Source: Streptomyces sp. TN58 (GTDB lineage: Bacteria > Actinomycetota > Actinomycetes > Streptomycetales > Streptomycetaceae). From it: a stretch of DNA of 64,000 nucleotides. The position numbers and the translations under genes are program-made. Positions 9,999 to 20,842 of the stretch are shown piece after piece. Position 1 is the stretch's first letter. The number at the start of each line of letters is the position of its first letter. The stretch covers positions 4,408,001 to 4,472,000 of the forward strand of contig NZ_CP018870.1 of NCBI RefSeq assembly GCF_001941845.1. Direction: 5' to 3'. The notes below the pieces were generated by a model. That model was not told the origin of the DNA. It saw only the letters and a list, made by a program, of their open reading frames with translations, and made no database searches.

Positions 9999-10504
9999 CC
10001 GTGGCCGAGACGGTTCTGCGCGAGATGCGCTGGTGGGACATCGCACCGGTGCTCGAACTGGAACACGACCTCTTCCCCGAGGACGCCTGGTCCGCCGGCA
10101 TGTTCTGGTCCGAACTGGCCCACGCGCGCGGCCCGCGGGCCACCCGCCGCTACGTCGTCGCCGAGACGGCCGACGGCCGCCTCGTCGGCTACGCCGGACT
10201 GGCCGCCGCCGGTGACCTGGCCGACGTACAGACCATCGCGGCCGCCCGCGACCAGTGGGGGACCGGCCTCGGCGCCCGGCTCCTGACCGAACTGCTGCGC
10301 GCCGCCACCGCGTTCGAGTGCGCCGAAGTGCTGCTGGAGGTGCGCGTGGACAACACCCGCGCCCAGAAGCTCTACGAGCGCTTCGGGTTCGAGCCCATCG
10401 GCTTCCGGCGCGGCTACTACCAGCCGGGCAACGTCGACGCGCTCGTCATGAGACTGACCGACCCCGCACAAGCACGAACTGAGAGCAGTGAGAGCAATGG
10501 CTGA
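9995..10504 (+). CDS. rimI: Ribosomal-protein-alanine N-acetyltransferase (GNAT)
   Basis: A 169-aa GNAT protein. [19 protein letters not shown] is the central beta strand pair, [11 protein letters not shown] is the acetyl-CoA pyrophosphate loop (Q/RxxGxG/A type), and [16 protein letters not shown] is the motif B helix with [12 protein letters not shown], typical of RimI. In its family RimI acetylates the N-terminal Ala of ribosomal protein S18, though broader activity is possible. It starts at a GTG overlapping the tsaB stop; a GTG two codons on (10001) is an alternative. Its 3' end overlaps tsaD by 8 nt. Confidence 0.92.
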
Positions 10505-11690
10505 CGAACCGCTCGTCCTCGGCATCGAGACCTCCTGCGACGAGACCGGTGTCGGCGTCGTCCGCGGCACCACCCTCCTCGCGGACGCGGTCGCGTCGAG
10601 CGTCGACGAGCACGCCCGCTTCGGCGGAGTCGTGCCCGAGGTCGCCTCGCGGGCCCACCTGGAGGCCATGGTCCCCACCATCGAGCGCGCACTGAAGGAG
10701 GCCGGCGTCAGCGCCCGCGACCTCGACGGCATCGCGGTCACCGCCGGACCCGGCCTCGCCGGGGCGCTGCTCGTGGGCACCTCGGCCGCCAAGGCCTACG
10801 CGTACGCCCTCGGCAAGCCCCTGTACGGCGTCAACCACCTGGCCTCCCACATCTGCGTGGACCAGCTGGAGCACGGCCCGCTGCCCGAGCCGACGATGGC
10901 GCTCCTGGTGTCCGGCGGACACTCCTCGCTGCTCCTGGCGCCCGACATCACCTCCGACGTACGGCCGCTCGGCGCGACCATCGACGACGCCGCGGGCGAG
11001 GCCTTCGACAAGATCGCGCGCGTGCTGCAGCTCGGCTTCCCCGGCGGCCCGGTCATCGACCGGCTCGCCAAGGAGGGCGACCCGAAGGCGATCAACTTCC
11101 CACGCGGCCTGACGGGCTCGCGCGACCCCGCGTACGACTTCTCCTTCTCCGGCCTGAAGACGGCCGTCGCCCGCTGGATCGAGGCGAAGCGGAACGCCGG
11201 CGAGGACGTGCCGGTGCGCGACGTGGCGGCTTCCTTCCAGGAAGCCGTGGTGGACGTCCTGACGCGCAAGGCGATCCGGGCGTGCAAGGACGAGGGCGTC
11301 GACCACCTGATGATCGGTGGCGGTGTGGCGGCCAACTCCCGGCTCCGCTCGCTCGCCCAGGAGCGCTGCGACGCCGCGGGGATCATCCTGCGCGTGCCGC
11401 GGCCCAAGCTGTGCACGGACAACGGCGCGATGGTGGCCGCACTGGGCGCGGAGATGGTCAGGCGCAACCGGCCGGCCTCGGACTGGGACCTCTCGGCGGA
11501 CTCCTCGCTGCCGGTCACGGACCCGCACGTGCCGGGAACGTCCCACACACAGGACCACGAGCACGAGAACGGGCACTCGCACGGCTCCTCGCACGGGCAC
11601 TCGCACGGCCACGGCCACGGCCACGGCCACGGCCACGGCCACGGCCACGACCACGTGCACGAGCTGAGCAAGGACAACCTGTACTCGTGA
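10497..11690 (+). CDS. tsaD: tRNA N6-adenosine threonylcarbamoyltransferase with His-rich tail
   Basis: TsaD transfers the threonylcarbamoyl group to A37. The 397-aa product has the family core to about residue 340: [40 protein letters not shown] (metal-ligand His pair) and the C-terminal [11 protein letters not shown] and CTDNGAM. The remaining 57 residues are unusual: repeated His-Gly and His-Ser dipeptides, then [11 protein letters not shown]. Typical bacterial TsaD proteins end near residue 340. The ATG at 10497 is chosen over the GTG at 10488 because it gives the standard [13 protein letters not shown] start. It overlaps rimI and a small downstream ORF, consistent with one operon. Confidence 0.95.
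11607..11648 (+). repeat. Hexanucleotide microsatellite (GGCCAC)7 inside tsaD
   Basis: Seven perfect tandem GGCCAC units encode a Gly-His run in the TsaD tail; flanking units (GGGCAC, GACCAC) are degenerate copies. Because the unit is 6 bp, copy-number change by slippage would keep the frame. Confidence 0.9.
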
Positions 11691-13286: not shown

Positions 13287-14243
13287 ATGCAGCTAGTCGG
13301 ACAAAGGGAAGATAAGACGCAACTGGGTCACCGGTACGCGGCGGGTCCGCGCGGCCGGTTCGGGGTGGCCGTGGCCGCCCTGCTGGTGGCAGCCCTCGGC
13401 ACGGCCTGCGGCTCCGGGCAGTCGGGCGGGCCGGACAAGGCCGAGAAGGCCAAGGCGGCCAAGGGCTCGGAGGCGGGCGCCGCCGGTGCGCTCAGCGCCG
13501 CCGAGAAGGCCAAGGCGCTGCAGCAGGCACGCGTCGCCGCGGCGAAGAAGTGGGGGCTGCGCCAGGTGCCGCTCGCGGCCCCGCCGGCGCCGAAGGAGAA
13601 GCCGGAGATCGAGACGCGTGACGGCTTCGAGGTGTGGAACCACGAAGAGGACGAACTGCCGCCGGTCTTCACCACCGTGCCCACCGAGGACAAGGTCGTC
13701 TTCCTGACCATCGACGACGGCTCGGAGAAGGACCCCGAGTTCCTGAAGATGATGCAGGAGCTGAAGATCCCGTACACGGCCTTCCTCAGCGACTACCTCG
13801 TTAAGGACAACTACCCGTACTTCAAGCAGATGCAGGCCGCGGGCGTCACGCTGAACAACCACACGCTCAACCACCGCTACATGCCCGGGCTGTCGTACGA
13901 GCAGCAGCGCGAGGAGATCTGCGGCCAGCAGGACACCATCCAGAAGACGTTCGGCAAGCGGCCGACGCTCTTCCGGCCGCCGTACGGCAACTACAACGAC
14001 GACACCCTCAAGGCGGCGAAGTCCTGCGGCATCAAGGCCGTCCCGCTGTGGAACGCCGAGGCGTTCACGAACCGCATGGACTACCGCGAGTGGGACCGCG
14101 ACCTGCACCCCGGTGACATCATCCTCACGCACTTCCGGGGTAAGGAGGACTGGAAGGGCACGATGCCTGACATGATCCGTCATGTCATGAAGACCGTCAC
14201 GGACAAGGGCTATGCCGTGGCCCGCCTGGAGGACTACTTGTGA
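13287..14243 (+). CDS. Polysaccharide deacetylase lipoprotein, first of a tandem pair
   Basis: Product of 318 aa. The ATG at 13287 is the best start, although the ribosome site is weak. After a basic N-terminus, AVAALLVAALGTACGSG is a signal peptide with lipobox-like LGTAC (imperfect at -3). A Lys/Ala-rich linker precedes the NodB-homology domain: FLTIDDGSEKDPEF (metal Asp pair; most relatives have TFDDG), NNHTLNH (two metal His), RPPYGNYNDDT and HPGDIILTHF. The domain should remove acetyl groups from a wall or extracellular glycan; the exact substrate is unknown. Its stop overlaps the start of a paralogue. Confidence 0.88.
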   Translation: MQLVGQREDKTQLGHRYAAGPRGRFGVAVAALLVAALGTACGSGQSGGPDKAEKAKAAKGSEAGAAGALSAAEKAKALQQARVAAAKKWGLRQVPLAAPPAPKEKPEIETRDGFEVWNHEEDELPPVFTTVPTEDKVVFLTIDDGSEKDPEFLKMMQELKIPYTAFLSDYLVKDNYPYFKQMQAAGVTLNNHTLNHRYMPGLSYEQQREEICGQQDTIQKTFGKRPTLFRPPYGNYNDDTLKAAKSCGIKAVPLWNAEAFTNRMDYREWDRDLHPGDIILTHFRGKEDWKGTMPDMIRHVMKTVTDKGYAVARLEDYL

Positions 14244-15142
14244 GGTACGTGCGCCGGTTGGTAGCCGGAACGCTGGCGGCCGGCGCGCTCGCGCTCTCGC
14301 TGACGGGGTGCGGCAAGAACGTGGACCCCACCGAACGGCTGGGCAACAAGGCCACGCCGAACCCGTCGTCGCCGACGCCGTCCGCGTCGACGACGGGTCC
14401 CGCGGCTGCTCCCGGGGGCGGGCAGGGGGGCGGGCAGGGGGGCGCGTCCGACGAGGCGTACAAGAAGTGGGGCCTGACGGCCCCGCTCCAGTACGCACCG
14501 AAGCCCGCCCAGAAGCCGCAGATCCCGAAGGCGGCCCCCGGCAAGGTCCCGGTGATAGACCGAATACCCCTGCCGGCCGGGGAGAAGACGGTCTTCCTGA
14601 CCTTCGACGACGGCGCCGAGAAGGACCCCGAGTTCCTGAAGATGGCGGCCGACCTCAAGCTGCCGATCAGCATGTTCCTCACGGACAGCGTGGCCTCGTC
14701 GGACTACGGGCACTTCGAGAAGCTTCGCGACAACGGCTCGGCGAGCACGGTGAACAACCACACGCTGACCCACCCGAACCTGCGGACCCTCTCCTTCGAG
14801 GCGCAGAAGAAGGAGATATGCGGCCAGCAGGACAAGCTGGAGAAGCGCTTCGGCCAGCGCCCGCCGTTCTTCCGCCCGCCCTTCGGCAACTACAACGACG
14901 ACACCCTCCGGGCTGCCTCGGAGTGCGGCGTCTCGTCGGTGCTCCTTTGGCGGGTGTCGATGCAGATAAACAACTTCCAGTACGCCCAGGGCTCCACCCT
15001 CCAGCCCGGCGACATCATCCTGGCCCACTTCCGCGGCCCGTCCGAACTCAAGGGCGCGACGGAAACCCAGATGACGACCCGCATGCTCCAGCGCATCCAG
15101 GAACAGGGCTATCGCATAGGCCGCCTGGAGGACTACCTGTAG
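14240..15142 (+). CDS. Polysaccharide deacetylase lipoprotein, second of a tandem pair
   Basis: Product of 300 aa starting at a GTG that overlaps the previous stop (GTGA). Signal peptide MRYVRRLVAGTLAAGALALS ends in a perfect lipobox LTGC. A Pro/Ser/Gly-rich linker (about 60 residues) leads to a NodB domain with FLTFDDGAEKDPEF, NNHTLTH, RPPFGNYNDDT and QPGDIILAHF. Similarity to the upstream gene extends outside the motifs (EICGQQDxxxKxFGxRP, a shared RLEDYL end), so this is a tandem duplication. Coupling suggests equal dosage. The repeat island begins right after its stop. Confidence 0.9.
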   Translation: MRYVRRLVAGTLAAGALALSLTGCGKNVDPTERLGNKATPNPSSPTPSASTTGPAAAPGGGQGGGQGGASDEAYKKWGLTAPLQYAPKPAQKPQIPKAAPGKVPVIDRIPLPAGEKTVFLTFDDGAEKDPEFLKMAADLKLPISMFLTDSVASSDYGHFEKLRDNGSASTVNNHTLTHPNLRTLSFEAQKKEICGQQDKLEKRFGQRPPFFRPPFGNYNDDTLRAASECGVSSVLLWRVSMQINNFQYAQGSTLQPGDIILAHFRGPSELKGATETQMTTRMLQRIQEQGYRIGRLEDYL

Positions 15143-15340
15143 GACCGCGGGCGCTTCGGGGGCGGGGGCCGCGGGGGCGGTGGCGGAAGGCGCGGCGGCG
15201 GTGCGGGTCGGCAGCCGCCGGGGCGGGCTTCGAGGGGTGCGGAGGTGGCTTCGAGGGACGGGATCCCGCCGGGGCGAGGCTTCGAGAGTCACGACGGCGG
15301 TGCGAGGAGCAGGATCCGCTGGGGCGGTGTCGGTGGGGTT
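15143..15340. repeat. GC-rich low-complexity left flank of the repeat island
   Basis: No gene. G-rich tracts (GGGGGCGGGGGCCGCGGGGG) are followed by repeated motifs of the type GGATCC(C/G)...GGGGCGAGGCTTCGAG. Similar motifs in reverse orientation (GGATCCCATTCTTCTGAAGC) occur beyond the right arm at about 16540, so the flanks are also partly inverted copies of each other. Confidence 0.6.
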
Positions 15341-15540
15341 CTGGGGGTTTCCCGTCAGTCCCATCGTCTCTCCGCGTCGGGCCGGCCCGTCAAGGGCGCT
15401 CCCGTTGGTCGCGTCGCTATGCGAGGGCCTTCGGCCCCCCTTGACCGACCGTCCCGCCACGGAAATCCGAAAGACTGCCGGGAAGCCCCCAGAGGAACGG
15501 GCCGGCCATCCAGACATCCCTCGGGCAGGTCGGCGCCGCG
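15341..15540. repeat. Left arm of a 200-bp inverted repeat
   Basis: This 200-bp segment, starting CTGGGGGTTTCCCGTCAG, is a near-identical reverse complement of 16317-16516. It contains two adjacent small hairpins: TCGC-TAT-GCGA and GGGCC-TTCG-GGCC-type (the latter with a TTCG loop). The few differences between arms cluster in the first hairpin and at the inner edge. All ORFs across it are short and shift frame, so it is read as non-coding. Confidence 0.85.
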
Positions 15541-15564
15541 CAGCGGGAGCCGGGTACGCCCCAA

Positions 15565-15725
15565 ATCGCTACGCGCTCCTGAAGGACGGCGTCAGCGGAC
15601 CCCTGTGGCTGGACATAGGCCGCCCCAGATCGCTACGCGCTTCTCCATCACGCGTCCGCGAGCCTCTGGGGTCGGGCATAAGCCGCCACCAATCGCTACG
15701 CGCTCCTCGACGACCGCGTCCGCCC
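15565..15725 (-). repeat. Three tandem copies of a 64-bp repeat, reverse orientation
   Basis: The core ATCGCTACGCGC occurs at 15565, 15629 and 15692, spacing 64 and 63 bp. The intervening sequence is also conserved (GGCTGGACATAGGCCGCC and variants). This is the reverse complement of the array at 15962-16305. The period is not a multiple of three, so any encoded peptide changes frame at each copy. Confidence 0.85.
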
Positions 15726-15961
15726 CTCGTTCGGGGCTGGGAGGGGCGAAATCGAGGGCCGGGAAAGCCATTCCTCGGCTCAGCCGAACTCAACCCCCAT
15801 CAAGACCACGACGAGATCCCACCCGTCGGCACAGACGGGGGCAATTAGGGCGAATGGCAGCCTCTCGGCCGTGCGCACTCTCCCAGACATGGATTGGCAT
15901 CGCTCCAGCCGTCATCCGGCGCTTTTCCACCCCACCCAGGGGCCGGACGCCGTCCAAGAGG
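15726..15961. other. Central spacer of the repeat island, no gene seen
   Basis: About 235 bp separating the two opposed 64-bp arrays. It is less GC-rich than its surroundings (for example GGGGGCAATTAGGGCGAATGG near 15840). No ORF with a ribosome site and actinobacterial codon bias was found, and no tRNA-like or known RNA motif was recognised. Confidence 0.6.
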
Positions 15962-16305
15962 GGCGCGGAAAGCTTTCTGCGGCTTGTGCCCAGCCCCAGA
16001 CGAACCGCAGACGCGTGATCGAGAAGCGCGCGGCCACCACTGGCGGCCTCTGCCCAACCCATGAGACTCGCGGACGCGTGATGGATAAGCGCGTAGCGAT
16101 CGCTGGCGGCCTATTCCCAGCCCAAGAGGCTTGCTGACGCCGTCAGGCAGGAGCGCGTAGCGATTGGTGGCGGCCTATGTCCAGCCCATGGGGCTCGGAG
16201 ACGCCGTCAGGCAGGAGCGCGTAGCGATTGGTGGCGGCCTATGTCCAGCCCATAGGGCTCGCAGGCGCCGTCGGGCAGGAGCGCGTAGCGATTTGACGCG
16301 CTCCT
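15962..16305 (+). repeat. About six tandem copies of a 64-bp repeat, forward orientation
   Basis: The core GCGCGTAGCGAT appears at 16089, 16153, 16217 and 16281 (exact 64-bp spacing). Degenerate copies begin at about 15962 and 16026. The most alike units share GTGGCGGCCTATGTCCAGCC and GACGCCGTCAGGCAGGAGCG. In the 16217 unit, CCTATG-TCCAGCC-CATAGG forms a stem, kept with a G-T wobble in the 16153 unit. The last core closes a perfect 10-bp palindrome, AGGAGCGCGT (16277-16286) with ACGCGCTCCT (16296-16305). It is not CRISPR: the between-core sequence is conserved too. Confidence 0.85.
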
Positions 16306-16316
16306 GGATCCGGGCA

Positions 16317-16516
16317 CGCGGCCCCGACCTCCCCGAGGGATGTCTGGATGGCCGGCCCGTTCCTCTGGGGGCTTCCCGGCAGTCTTTCGGATTTCCGTGG
16401 CGGGACGGTCGGTCAAGGGGGGCCGAAGGCCCTCACGAAGTGACGCGACCAACGGGAGCGCCCTTGACGGGCCGGCCCGACGCGGAGAGACGATGGGACT
16501 GACGGGAAACCCCCAG
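16317..16516. repeat. Right arm of the 200-bp inverted repeat
   Basis: Reverse complement of 15341-15540. On the complementary strand the hairpin corresponding to TCGC-TAT-GCGA reads TCAC-TTC-GTGA: both bases of one pair differ while the stem is kept. The adjacent GGGCC-TTCG hairpin is unchanged. Outside a few bases at the inner edge and this hairpin the arms agree almost completely. Confidence 0.85.
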
Positions 16517-16557
16517 GGCATTTCCGACCCTGCCCGAGTGGATCCCATTCTTCTGAA

Positions 16558-16947
16558 GCCTCCGCGCCCTTCTGAAGTTCGCCTTGGCTGGATCCCTCTC
16601 CGCGTATCGCCGCTGCGCCGTCCCGCCCCCGCCCCGGCGGCTCCCGCTCCGCGTATCGCCGCCGCGCCTTCCCGCCCCCGCCCCGGCGGCTCCCGCCCCC
16701 CCCCGCCGCTGCGCCTTGCGCCCCGCCCCGGCGGCTCCCGCCCCACCCCCGCCCCGGCGGCTCCCGCTCCGCGTATCGCCGCCGCGCCTTCCCGCCCCCG
16801 CCTCGGCGGCTCCCGCCCCCTACCGCCGCTGCGCCTTGCGCCCCGCCCCGGCGGCTCCCGCCCCCCCCACCGCCGCTGCGCCTTGCGCCCCGCCTCGGCG
16901 GCTCCCGCCCCACCCCCGCCCGGCGGCTGCCGCCCCGCCCCCGCCTC
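16558..16947. repeat. GC-rich low-complexity right flank with a 126-bp direct duplication
   Basis: Repeats of CCCCGGCGGCTCCCGC fill this stretch. A segment of about 126 bp beginning near GCTCCGCGTATCGCC (16640s) recurs directly downstream (16760s). Apparent Pro/Ala/Arg-rich ORFs on both strands are products of the low complexity. It runs up to the stop codon of the convergent SEDS gene. Confidence 0.7.
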
Positions 16948-18339
16948 CTACCCCGCCACCGGGGTGATCGTTGTTTCCGCCGGGCCTCGGGCGTCCGCCT
17001 CGCGTTGGCGTTCCGCGCTGTCGCTGATGCGGAGGAGGAGGGCGATCATGATCCAGTTGGCCAGGAGGGACGAGCCGCCCTTGGCCAGGAAGGGCAGGGC
17101 CTTGCCCGTGAGGGGGATCAGGCCCGTGACGCCTCCGGCGACCACGAAGACCTGGAGCGCCAGCGCCGAGGCGAGCCCCACCGCCAGCAGCTTGCCGAAG
17201 GGGTCGCGGGCGCCGAGTGCCATCCGCAGCCCGCGCTGCACGAGGAGCCCGTAGAGGATCAGTACGGCCATGACCCCGGCCAGGCCCAGCTCCTCGCCCA
17301 CCGTCGTGAGGATGAAGTCGCTGCGCCCGGCGAACTTGATCAGCTCGGGGTGGCCCATGCCGAGGCCGGTCCCCGAGACGCCGCCCGTGCCGAAGCTGAA
17401 CAGCGCCTGCGCCGACTGGTCCGAGGTGACACCTGGGGGAGGGGTCTCCCAGTAGACGGAGAGCGGATTCAGCCAGGCCGCCACGCGCGCCTTCACATGC
17501 GGCTCGGTCGAGCCCACGACGAAGGCGCCCGCCGCAGCCATGAGCACACCGCAGACGATCCAGCTGGTGCGCTCGGTGGCGACGTACAGCATCACGACGA
17601 AGACGCCGAAGAAGATCAGCGACGTGCCCAGGTCCCGCTCGAAGACCAGCACCAGCATCGACAGGATCCACACCGTGACGATGGGTCCGAGCTGGCGCAT
17701 CGGGGGCAGGCGCACCCCGAGGAACCGGCGGCCCGTCAGGGCGAGGGAGTCGCGGTGGATGACCAGGTAGCCGGCGAAGAAGATCGCGATCATGATCTTC
17801 ACGAACTCCCCGGGCTGGACCGAGAAGCCGAAGAGGATGATCCACCGCTTGGCGCCGTACGTGTCCGCGCCGAAGAACGCCGGTGCGATCAGCAGCACCA
17901 GCGCGACCGCCATCGTGATGTAGATGAACCGCTGGAGCAGCCGGTGGTCGCGCAGCAGTGCCAGCACCGCGATGCACGCGGCCACGCCGACCACGGTCCA
18001 CAGCAGCTGGCCCGGGGCGTTCGCGTCGGAGTTCCACCGCTCGATGTAGCCCTGGTCGAGCCGGTGGATCAGTACGAGCCCCAGGCCGGTCAGCAGCATG
18101 GCGAGCGGGAAGACCAGCGGGTCCGCGTAGGCGGCGAAGCGGCGTACGCCCAGATGCCCCACCAGCGACAGCAGCGTCATGCTGATGGTGAAGCCGGCGA
18201 GGTTGGGCGGGAGCTCGCCGTTCATCGCGAGGCCCGCGGCCGCGTGCCCGAAGACGGCGATGGCGATGACGAGAACGAGGAGCAGCGCCTCGGTGCGACG
18301 GCGGGCACCCGCCGTCGTCAGCGGCCTCAGTCCACGCAC
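16948..18339 (-). CDS. SEDS-family peptidoglycan polymerase (FtsW/RodA)
   Basis: Product of 463 aa from the GTG at 18339 (VRGLRPLTTAGARRRTE, a basic cytoplasmic start). The in-frame sequence upstream is Arg-rich and non-membrane, so it is left out. About ten hydrophobic segments follow. Family motifs include QPGEFVKI, ERDLGTSLIFFG (the Asp is the presumed catalytic residue), GGVSGTGLGMGHPELI with SDFILTTVGEELGL, and GKALPFLAKGGSSLLANWIM near the end. SEDS proteins polymerise glycan strands from lipid II with a class B PBP. No PBP gene is adjacent, so FtsW and RodA roles cannot be separated. It is divergent from groES. Confidence 0.9.
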   Translation of the reverse strand: MRGLRPLTTAGARRRTEALLLVLVIAIAVFGHAAAGLAMNGELPPNLAGFTISMTLLSLVGHLGVRRFAAYADPLVFPLAMLLTGLGLVLIHRLDQGYIERWNSDANAPGQLLWTVVGVAACIAVLALLRDHRLLQRFIYITMAVALVLLIAPAFFGADTYGAKRWIILFGFSVQPGEFVKIMIAIFFAGYLVIHRDSLALTGRRFLGVRLPPMRQLGPIVTVWILSMLVLVFERDLGTSLIFFGVFVVMLYVATERTSWIVCGVLMAAAGAFVVGSTEPHVKARVAAWLNPLSVYWETPPPGVTSDQSAQALFSFGTGGVSGTGLGMGHPELIKFAGRSDFILTTVGEELGLAGVMAVLILYGLLVQRGLRMALGARDPFGKLLAVGLASALALQVFVVAGGVTGLIPLTGKALPFLAKGGSSLLANWIMIALLLRISDSAERQREADARGPAETTITPVAG

Positions 18340-18623
18340 GGGACGCCGCCGACACCCTCGGGGGCGGGCAGGGGGCCTGCGGCGGAGGGCGGGCGGGATC
18401 CTGGATCGCCGGCGGCGCCCGGTGCGCAGGGGCCGGCGGAAGCCATGGGTCCGATTCGCTCTCCAATGAGGCGCTTTATCTTCATATCTTCTACGACGTC
18501 GATGCCGTCCCCGGGGTTCCTCCCCGAAGCCCGTAGGCCCGCCGTCCGTCCGCCGGACGCCCCGCCGAAGCCCCCGCCGGGCACCCCGCGGGGGGTGCCC
18601 GCGCAACGCCCGGCCGACGGGAA

Positions 18624-18650
18624 TTGGCACTCCGCTTGACCGAGTGCTAA
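18624..18650 (+). promoter_or_regulatory. CIRCE element 1 (HrcA operator)
   Basis: TTGGCACTC-N9-GAGTGCTAA matches the CIRCE consensus TTAGCACTC-N9-GAGTGCTAA in 17 of 18 arm positions. It overlaps the -35 region of the groES promoter, so HrcA binding should block RNA polymerase under normal growth and release it on heat shock. Confidence 0.95.
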
Positions 18651-18665
18651 TCGCCGGAATAGTCT
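18636..18665 (+). promoter_or_regulatory. Predicted groESL promoter
   Basis: TTGACC (18636-18641) and TAGTCT (18660-18665), 18 bp apart, fit a housekeeping (HrdB-type) promoter. The -35 lies within CIRCE 1 and the inferred start point falls at CIRCE 2. The arrangement is as expected for an HrcA-repressed chaperonin operon. Confidence 0.7.
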
Positions 18666-18670
18666 CGCAC

Positions 18671-18697
18671 CTGGCACTCGCCCCCGGTGAGTGCCAA
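18671..18697 (+). promoter_or_regulatory. CIRCE element 2 (HrcA operator)
   Basis: CTGGCACTC-N9-GAGTGCCAA, two symmetric changes from the consensus, 47 bp downstream of CIRCE 1 and about 100 bp before groES. Two operators allow cooperative HrcA repression. Confidence 0.92.
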
Positions 18698-18793
18698 CAC
18701 AGCGACAGGCAGGTCCGGCACCCGCGACGACGGATCGACCTGGTCGCCACCTCAGACAGTTAACCCCGGATCTCCGAAGGGGGAGGTCGGATC

Positions 18794-19204: not shown

Positions 19205-20842
<1,638 letters not shown>

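Follow-up and report, generated by a model that had tools for sequence, protein, structure and literature searches.

Streptomyces sp. TN58 carries, between two convergent genes, a 1.8-kb island that we interpret as a cargo-free copy of a non-autonomous mobile gene cassette whose folded ends would be recognised in trans, a reading to which we assign a probability of roughly 0.55. The island belongs to a dispersed family whose arms pair outward and share a conserved fold; longer copies hold variable genes, units are present or absent as a whole, and near-identical copies sit at different sites. The element works like a mobile insertion cassette, with a type of end that matches none of the described ones we found. 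It is apparently undescribed, and our literature search returned no description of it.

Architecture of the island

The island occupies positions 15143-16947 of the window, by which we mean the whole stretch of 64,000 nucleotides analysed here. An earlier note, made from the sequence alone, had described it as a nested palindrome between convergent genes, and recomputing the inverted arms, the opposed arrays and the partly complementary flanks confirms this layout. A polysaccharide deacetylase gene (14240-15142, plus strand) lies on one side and a gene for an FtsW/RodA/SpoVE protein (16948-18750, minus strand) on the other. The inverted arms extend over 15312-15652 and 16205-16545 (341 nt, 87% complementary, 552 nt between them), so that the 200-bp arms reported before (15341-15540 and 16317-16516) turn out to be their best-conserved core. 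Each arm is also an imperfect palindrome by itself (68-70% self-complementary matches), and the right arm is 93% identical to the left over 229 bp. The structured strand of the left arm (15338-15520, with covariation across 89 arms) is the minus strand and that of the right arm (16336-16520; row L041:3049-3220 of the arm alignment) the plus strand, both reading outward. Each contains an apex recognised by our covariance model R1, at 15376-15458 on the minus strand (94.5 bits; G000:4423376-4423458) and at 16399-16481 on the plus strand (94.8 bits; G000:4424399-4424481).

Inside the arms, the opposed arrays of a 64-bp repeat are real, with three units on the left (15557-15723, starting at 15557, 15621 and 15684) and about five units of 63-64 bp on the right (15995-16300). 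They enclose a centre (15724-15994) that has no cargo gene, is homologous in parts to the centres of other short copies and is, as noted before, less GC-rich than the arms (about 0.665 versus 0.70). Outside the arms lie G-rich repeats on the left (15143-15333, GC skew +0.25 to +0.31) and C-rich repeats on the right (16521-16947, including 120-bp repeats, GC skew -0.3 to -0.4), which are partly inverted relative to each other (15175-15227 and 16677-16729, for example, are 83% complementary). An alignment of 24 arms shows that a G-rich stretch of about 50 bp just outside the arm is common to copies. Because the outer G-rich flanks are absent from empty orthologous sites, they either arrived with the element or grew afterwards; outer-type repeats can also exist alone, since one relative (G063) has them without arms at a site (L030) occupied in TN58. 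Elsewhere in the window, two open reading frames (10488-11690 and 19214-20842) that look TsaD-like and GroEL-like by eye both have C-terminal histidine-rich GH repeats.

A dispersed family of outward-facing arm pairs

Searching the 7.585-Mb TN58 chromosome with arm DNA returned 27 matches, 24 of them strong (86-100% identity) and three weak. Recurrence at this level of identity means that the palindrome is not a product of chance, and dispersed arms with variable flanks are what the earlier note had said would support a mobile family. The apex model recovers the same 24 places among its 38 matches (80.8-100 bits), the remaining 14 being weaker and on the opposite strand of such places. The strong arms form 11 outward-facing pairs and two solo arms, making 13 sites, all internal to the chromosome, with paired apices 0.94-2.6 kb apart. 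Across 66 loci from 11 genomes, neighbouring arm pairs face outward in 60 of 60 cases; six loci (L389-L394, all from G062) have one arm by the strict pattern and give no pair.

How did so many copies arise? For the eight TN58 elements with both arms distinct in the alignment, mean similarity is 0.945 between partners and 0.933 between non-partners (112 comparisons), with the best non-partner at 0.970, and the pattern is alike in four further genomes (G223, G386, G158 and G062). Partners being no more alike than non-partners, spread or exchange takes place in whole units and not by local duplication.

Occupied and empty sites

The site of the window copy is empty in two relatives, with 105 and 107 bp between the flanking genes (G070 and G012). 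In G062 it holds an arm-bracketed PadR gene and a hydrolase gene, in G063 one arm along with other sequence, and in G078 (L149, G078:C1:3815800-3820500) GntR, DUF2867 and TetR genes and a small ORF without a recognisable arm. Since genes have entered there even without arms, the gap behaves as an insertion hotspot.

To these we added eight further sites, locating the flanks in seven relatives by one joined query and comparing 40 stretches. Clean empty orthologues, 23-165 bp long, exist at six of the nine sites, the window's included: L029 is empty in G066 (40 bp), L030 in four relatives (28-164 bp), L034 in two stretches (31 and 43 bp), L035 in one (84 bp) and L037 in five relatives (23-165 bp). 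At L031, L032 and L039 we found no clean empty orthologue among the seven relatives, and at examined sites the neighbouring gene is missing too in some of them. Arms occupy the same site in relatives at L030 (G223), L031 (G063 and, with one arm, G066), L032 (G063), L035 and L039 (both G066); together with the window site, these shared occupancies indicate that copies are partly old. At L034, a 2OG-oxygenase cargo and both arms are jointly absent from G063 and G223, and in TN58 the left gene ends differently as a result of the element. A simple GC-rich hairpin is present in several but not all of ten empty sites examined. By eye, no target-site duplication is seen at the six sites with empty orthologues, where the G-rich flanks blur the junctions.

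Near-identical copies tell a similar story. Two copies in G062, at different sites and in opposite orientation, share 98.6% identity over 1149 bp, and the homology between them stops 68 and 83 bp beyond the arms. A further pair of copies is 96.1% identical over 1149 bp, two copies in G158 are 92.5% identical over 1364 bp, and the window copy matches the one at L037 at 88.8% over 1527 bp. Taken singly, such observations are ambiguous: near-identical copies could stem from transposition or gene conversion, and empty sites could instead reflect losses. Taken together, both are more simply explained by movement of the unit.

Imagine, alternatively, that the arms were simply shared homology through which strains exchange cargo after conjugation, with no true transposition involved. 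The contents of the window site do differ among TN58, G062, G063 and G078, and arms resemble those of other elements as closely as they do their partners, both as this scenario would have it. However, it leaves unexplained why units sit at new sites with empty relatives and why whole copies sit at different sites in both orientations, and we regard it as quite unlikely to be the full account, although recombination may be responsible for part of the spread. Among the three guesses offered by the earlier note, a non-autonomous mobile element is therefore the one that fits best, given dispersed copies with different flanks, empty orthologues and 98.6%-identical copies at different sites.

Cargo genes

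The island had been called non-coding. This holds for the window copy, where no ORF passes our cargo rule (at least 100 aa with Streptomyces-like codon positions; gene calls in the loci rest on codon-position GC), but not for longer copies, which have genes inside. Cargo ORFs are found in 23 of 60 pairs, that is, in 23 of the 28 with apices at least 1.3 kb apart and in none of the 32 closer ones; because loci were partly selected for a long inner distance, 23/60 is not a genome-wide cargo rate.

Pfam searches of a first set of ten proteins (one of them, from L149, not arm-bracketed) yielded HTH_34, GNAT and 2OG-FeII matches, six proteins having none. A second set comprised PadR with an alpha/beta hydrolase, glyoxalases, NUDIX, an aldo/keto reductase with TetR, SnoaL, AraC-GyrI and a flavoprotein, and a third an aminotransferase, a glyoxalase, a GDSL lipase, GntR-UTRA, a mycothiol-S-transferase, DDE_5 and HTH_Tnp_1. 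These families are unrelated to one another. No consistent transposase emerged among the cargo examined, the two transposase parts, DDE_5 (L400) and HTH_Tnp_1 (L175), being unrelated to each other.

We considered defence functions as a common theme and discarded the idea, as a comparison of ten cargo proteins with PADLOC produced weak winged-helix matches for a single protein and nothing else. Separately, a small ORF with MAVINENVSDSG...ELAYIRGASGREFTT recurs in or near several islets of different genomes (L031:3147-3356, L149:1265-1573, L170:3685-3891 and, antisense, L150 at about 1927-2199); Pfam has no match for the L149 version.

Arms conserved as a fold

Folded as RNA, the outward (minus) strand of the window's left arm reaches -117.3 kcal/mol (z -7.2), compared with a z of -3.9 for the inward (plus) strand; as single-stranded DNA, z is -3.7, a fold computed for the inward strand alone. 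Conservation of this fold can be judged from 89 distinct arms (out of 96 from this genome and nine others), in which compensatory double changes appear at 16 of 44 consensus pairs. Consensus energy, with each strand predicted afresh, is -53.1 outward and -21.7 inward. The outward structure contains 205 G-T(U) cells and one A-C cell, yet because that structure was predicted on the outward strand, the energy gap is the fairer measure. Arm by arm the outward preference is by itself modest: 79 of 89 arms are more stable on the outward strand, by a median of 8.4 kcal/mol, when the mean strand difference among 200 random window segments is 9.2.

At the apex, 15 of 25 pairs carry double changes, and the covariation score of 0.249 compares with 0.068 for shuffled alignments, none of 500 reaching the observed value, and with no more than 0.058 for slid ones. 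This alignment consists of 46 apices chosen for diversity, after two of 48 were dropped for unread bases. In distant carriers, the sequence of the basal stem is wholly different and pairing is almost complete. When folds were drawn for 14 apex matches in 11 loci, those of L376, one match in L373 and L240 (a Nakamurella MAG) were not full arms. Compensatory changes above shuffled and slid controls are the mark of a structured single strand, either RNA or single-stranded DNA. The suspicion that this is a structured RNA locus is hence right as regards a covarying fold, which does not decide between the two kinds of strand.

Could the arms be RNA 3'-end structures, terminators or stability elements that shield the bracketed accessory genes, with recombination only as the means of spread? 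Arms do lie behind genes, with seven of the 11 TN58 pairs between convergent genes by a crude gene call. The outward strand is also the one that would be transcribed from the cargo outward, and the excess of G-T(U) over A-C cells, on a structure predicted for that strand, points the same way, as does the lack of convergent cargo in all eight two-ORF cases (some of these ORFs are doubtful). Three observations argue against this model as a satisfactory explanation. First, an apex of three hairpins with nearly invariant bases far exceeds what a terminator needs, and GNA loops, as found in it, characterise very stable DNA hairpins. Second, whole units, cargo included, are present or absent at sites. 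Third, cargo-free copies are the majority of pairs examined (37 of 60). We consider the model unlikely, if still worth bearing in mind.

Apex hairpins and telomeres

The closing stem of the apex, UCAAGGG/CCCUUGA, bears three small hairpins, two of which have GNA loops in nearly all copies. Among 111 distinct apices, hairpin 1 has such a loop in 110 (one with an unread base) and hairpin 2 in 105, and the third hairpin shows, by eye in the alignment, tandem GA/GA mismatches. In DNA, C(GNA)G loops have exceptional stability. The 3'-outward polarity, the GNA loops and the strand-specific covariation together suggest recognition as a single strand.

Similar hairpins occur at Streptomyces telomeres. 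Of 20 contig starts from other Streptomyces, six carry GNA hairpins on the 3' strand alone, two to six of them each; 5'-strand hairpins are found once each in L351 and L353 and twice in L357, which is telomere-like, and the other 11 starts have none. Five of the six share 11-mers such as TCGCGCAGCGA with the apex, on the 3' strand only, and six further starts share a few, on one strand or the other. According to PMC4513846, GCA loops of the telomere have sheared G:A closing pairs and are recognised by Tap, which binds them. Arms and telomere palindromes are thus alike in carrying GNA-loop hairpins on the strand with an outward-pointing 3' end, but the arms are internal, paired and present in many copies, with a long basal stem. 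A strict telomere origin was rejected, as the assembled ends of the TN58 chromosome have no arm match, only short weak ones. The likeness is a structural parallel and no evidence of descent.

Distribution

Arm DNA is found in at least 40 of 392 sampled Streptomyces at an E-value of 1e-8, a floor, since two candidates were scored per genome. The apex model has matches in 138 of the 392 and none in 254 at the threshold used. Across the class it has matches in 84 of 394 genomes and 29 of 137 genera, with model E-values that are rough and matches mostly uninspected; outward pairs are visible among these in G531, G769 and G543. An exact-pattern scan returned at least 120 stretches, and of the 80 listed, 79 are from Streptomyces (S. 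virginiae, S. lavendulae, S. goshikiensis, S. katrae, S. xanthophaeus, S. toxytricini, S. avidinii and others) and one is from a Nakamurella MAG.

One of 72,556 plasmid records contains the element (NZ_CP108163.1:168581-168752, on a 277-kb Streptomyces plasmid), and arms also occur on a second contig of G386 (C2, 348,805 bp), which makes conjugative spread possible. None of 50,697 phage records has the element, and viral contigs gave no match to one exact pattern. Draft contigs of relatives (L168, L202, L211, L218 and L227) end at or near elements, as expected if elements break assemblies.

The earlier note had also raised a chromosome-organisation or partition site. Nine of the 13 TN58 sites do fall in the middle of the chromosome (3.2-5.0 Mb of 7.6 Mb), but the idea finds little support in a family that most sampled Streptomyces lack at our threshold, whose sites differ between species, whose longer copies have variable genes inside and of which one copy is on a plasmid. 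We think it highly improbable.

Relation to known elements

Mobile insertion cassettes and MITEs, going by their descriptions, share with this family inverted ends (11 inverted pairs in TN58), the want of a transposase of their own, possible passenger genes and dispersal. An ordinary cassette of this kind, mobilised by a DDE transposon and distinguished only by very long inverted ends, might therefore seem sufficient. Against it, the arms are conserved as a fold and not as end sequence, measure about 165 nt each, come with arrays, and show no sharp short terminal repeat and, at junctions blurred by G-rich flanks, no target duplication visible by eye; we judge this alternative very unlikely. 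We did not find a parent element, that is, an autonomous transposon with the same ends, and the cargo of the copies examined contains no common transposase.

REP/BIME sequences are, according to PMC3733652, likewise extragenic palindromes, often in inverted pairs, and act as single-stranded DNA. REPs are 20-40 bp long, several times shorter than the arms, which also have a branched apex and bracket genes. A Y1_Tnp (IS200-like) gene, as would be needed for movement by a RAYT/IS200 transposase, does lie about 2 kb from a solo arm of TN58 (L033:166-861, minus strand), yet such genes are absent from most carriers tested, being present in four of 15 chosen carriers and two of 15 other genomes, at least four of which (G007, G009, G015 and G071) also have apex matches. 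A mover of this type is accordingly disfavoured, to the point that we give it almost no credence.

Integron cassettes are small diverse genes beside a structure-conserved attC hairpin. The resemblance is evident, but here each unit has two inverted arms, and units are single and dispersed, with no arrays of them seen in the loci viewed. One cargo protein, the AraC-GyrI protein of L184 (1398-2258, minus strand), also matches Pfam Cass2, an integron-associated effector binding protein. Rfam had no match at gathering score in eight element loci, and in the window stretch gave six sub-threshold matches, all far below gathering.

Proposed mechanism and significance

How might a folded-end cassette operate? 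Its ends would be the inverted pair of arms of about 165 nt. On the strand with its 3' end directed away from the element, each arm folds into a long hairpin with three small hairpins on top, of which two have GNA loops. These folded ends may be recognised by an enzyme provided in trans, its substrate more probably being single-stranded DNA exposed in replication or repair than RNA. The unit would then be copied or moved into a short gap downstream of a gene, and the arms, once inserted, could also terminate transcription there. As for the 64-bp arrays and the outer G-rich tracts, they probably represent spacer and target-derived sequence, growing and shrinking through recombination.

A bolder proposal, which we advance tentatively and rate as improbable, is that such hairpin-ended gene cassettes exist throughout the actinobacterial class and pass through a single-stranded or hairpin-ended linear stage, their telomere-like folded 3' ends being bound by telomere-type or other hairpin-binding proteins, in a system distinct from DDE, Y1/RAYT and integron systems. 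Related hairpins in other actinobacteria do suggest that the element may be an overlooked way of carrying genes.

What is at hand is a structured element that carries many kinds of accessory genes and has apex-model matches in about a third of sampled Streptomyces. It may explain why draft contigs end at such places, it gives the search for a new mobilising enzyme a concrete substrate to start from, and it provides a test of whether telomere-like hairpins have a role of their own outside chromosome ends.
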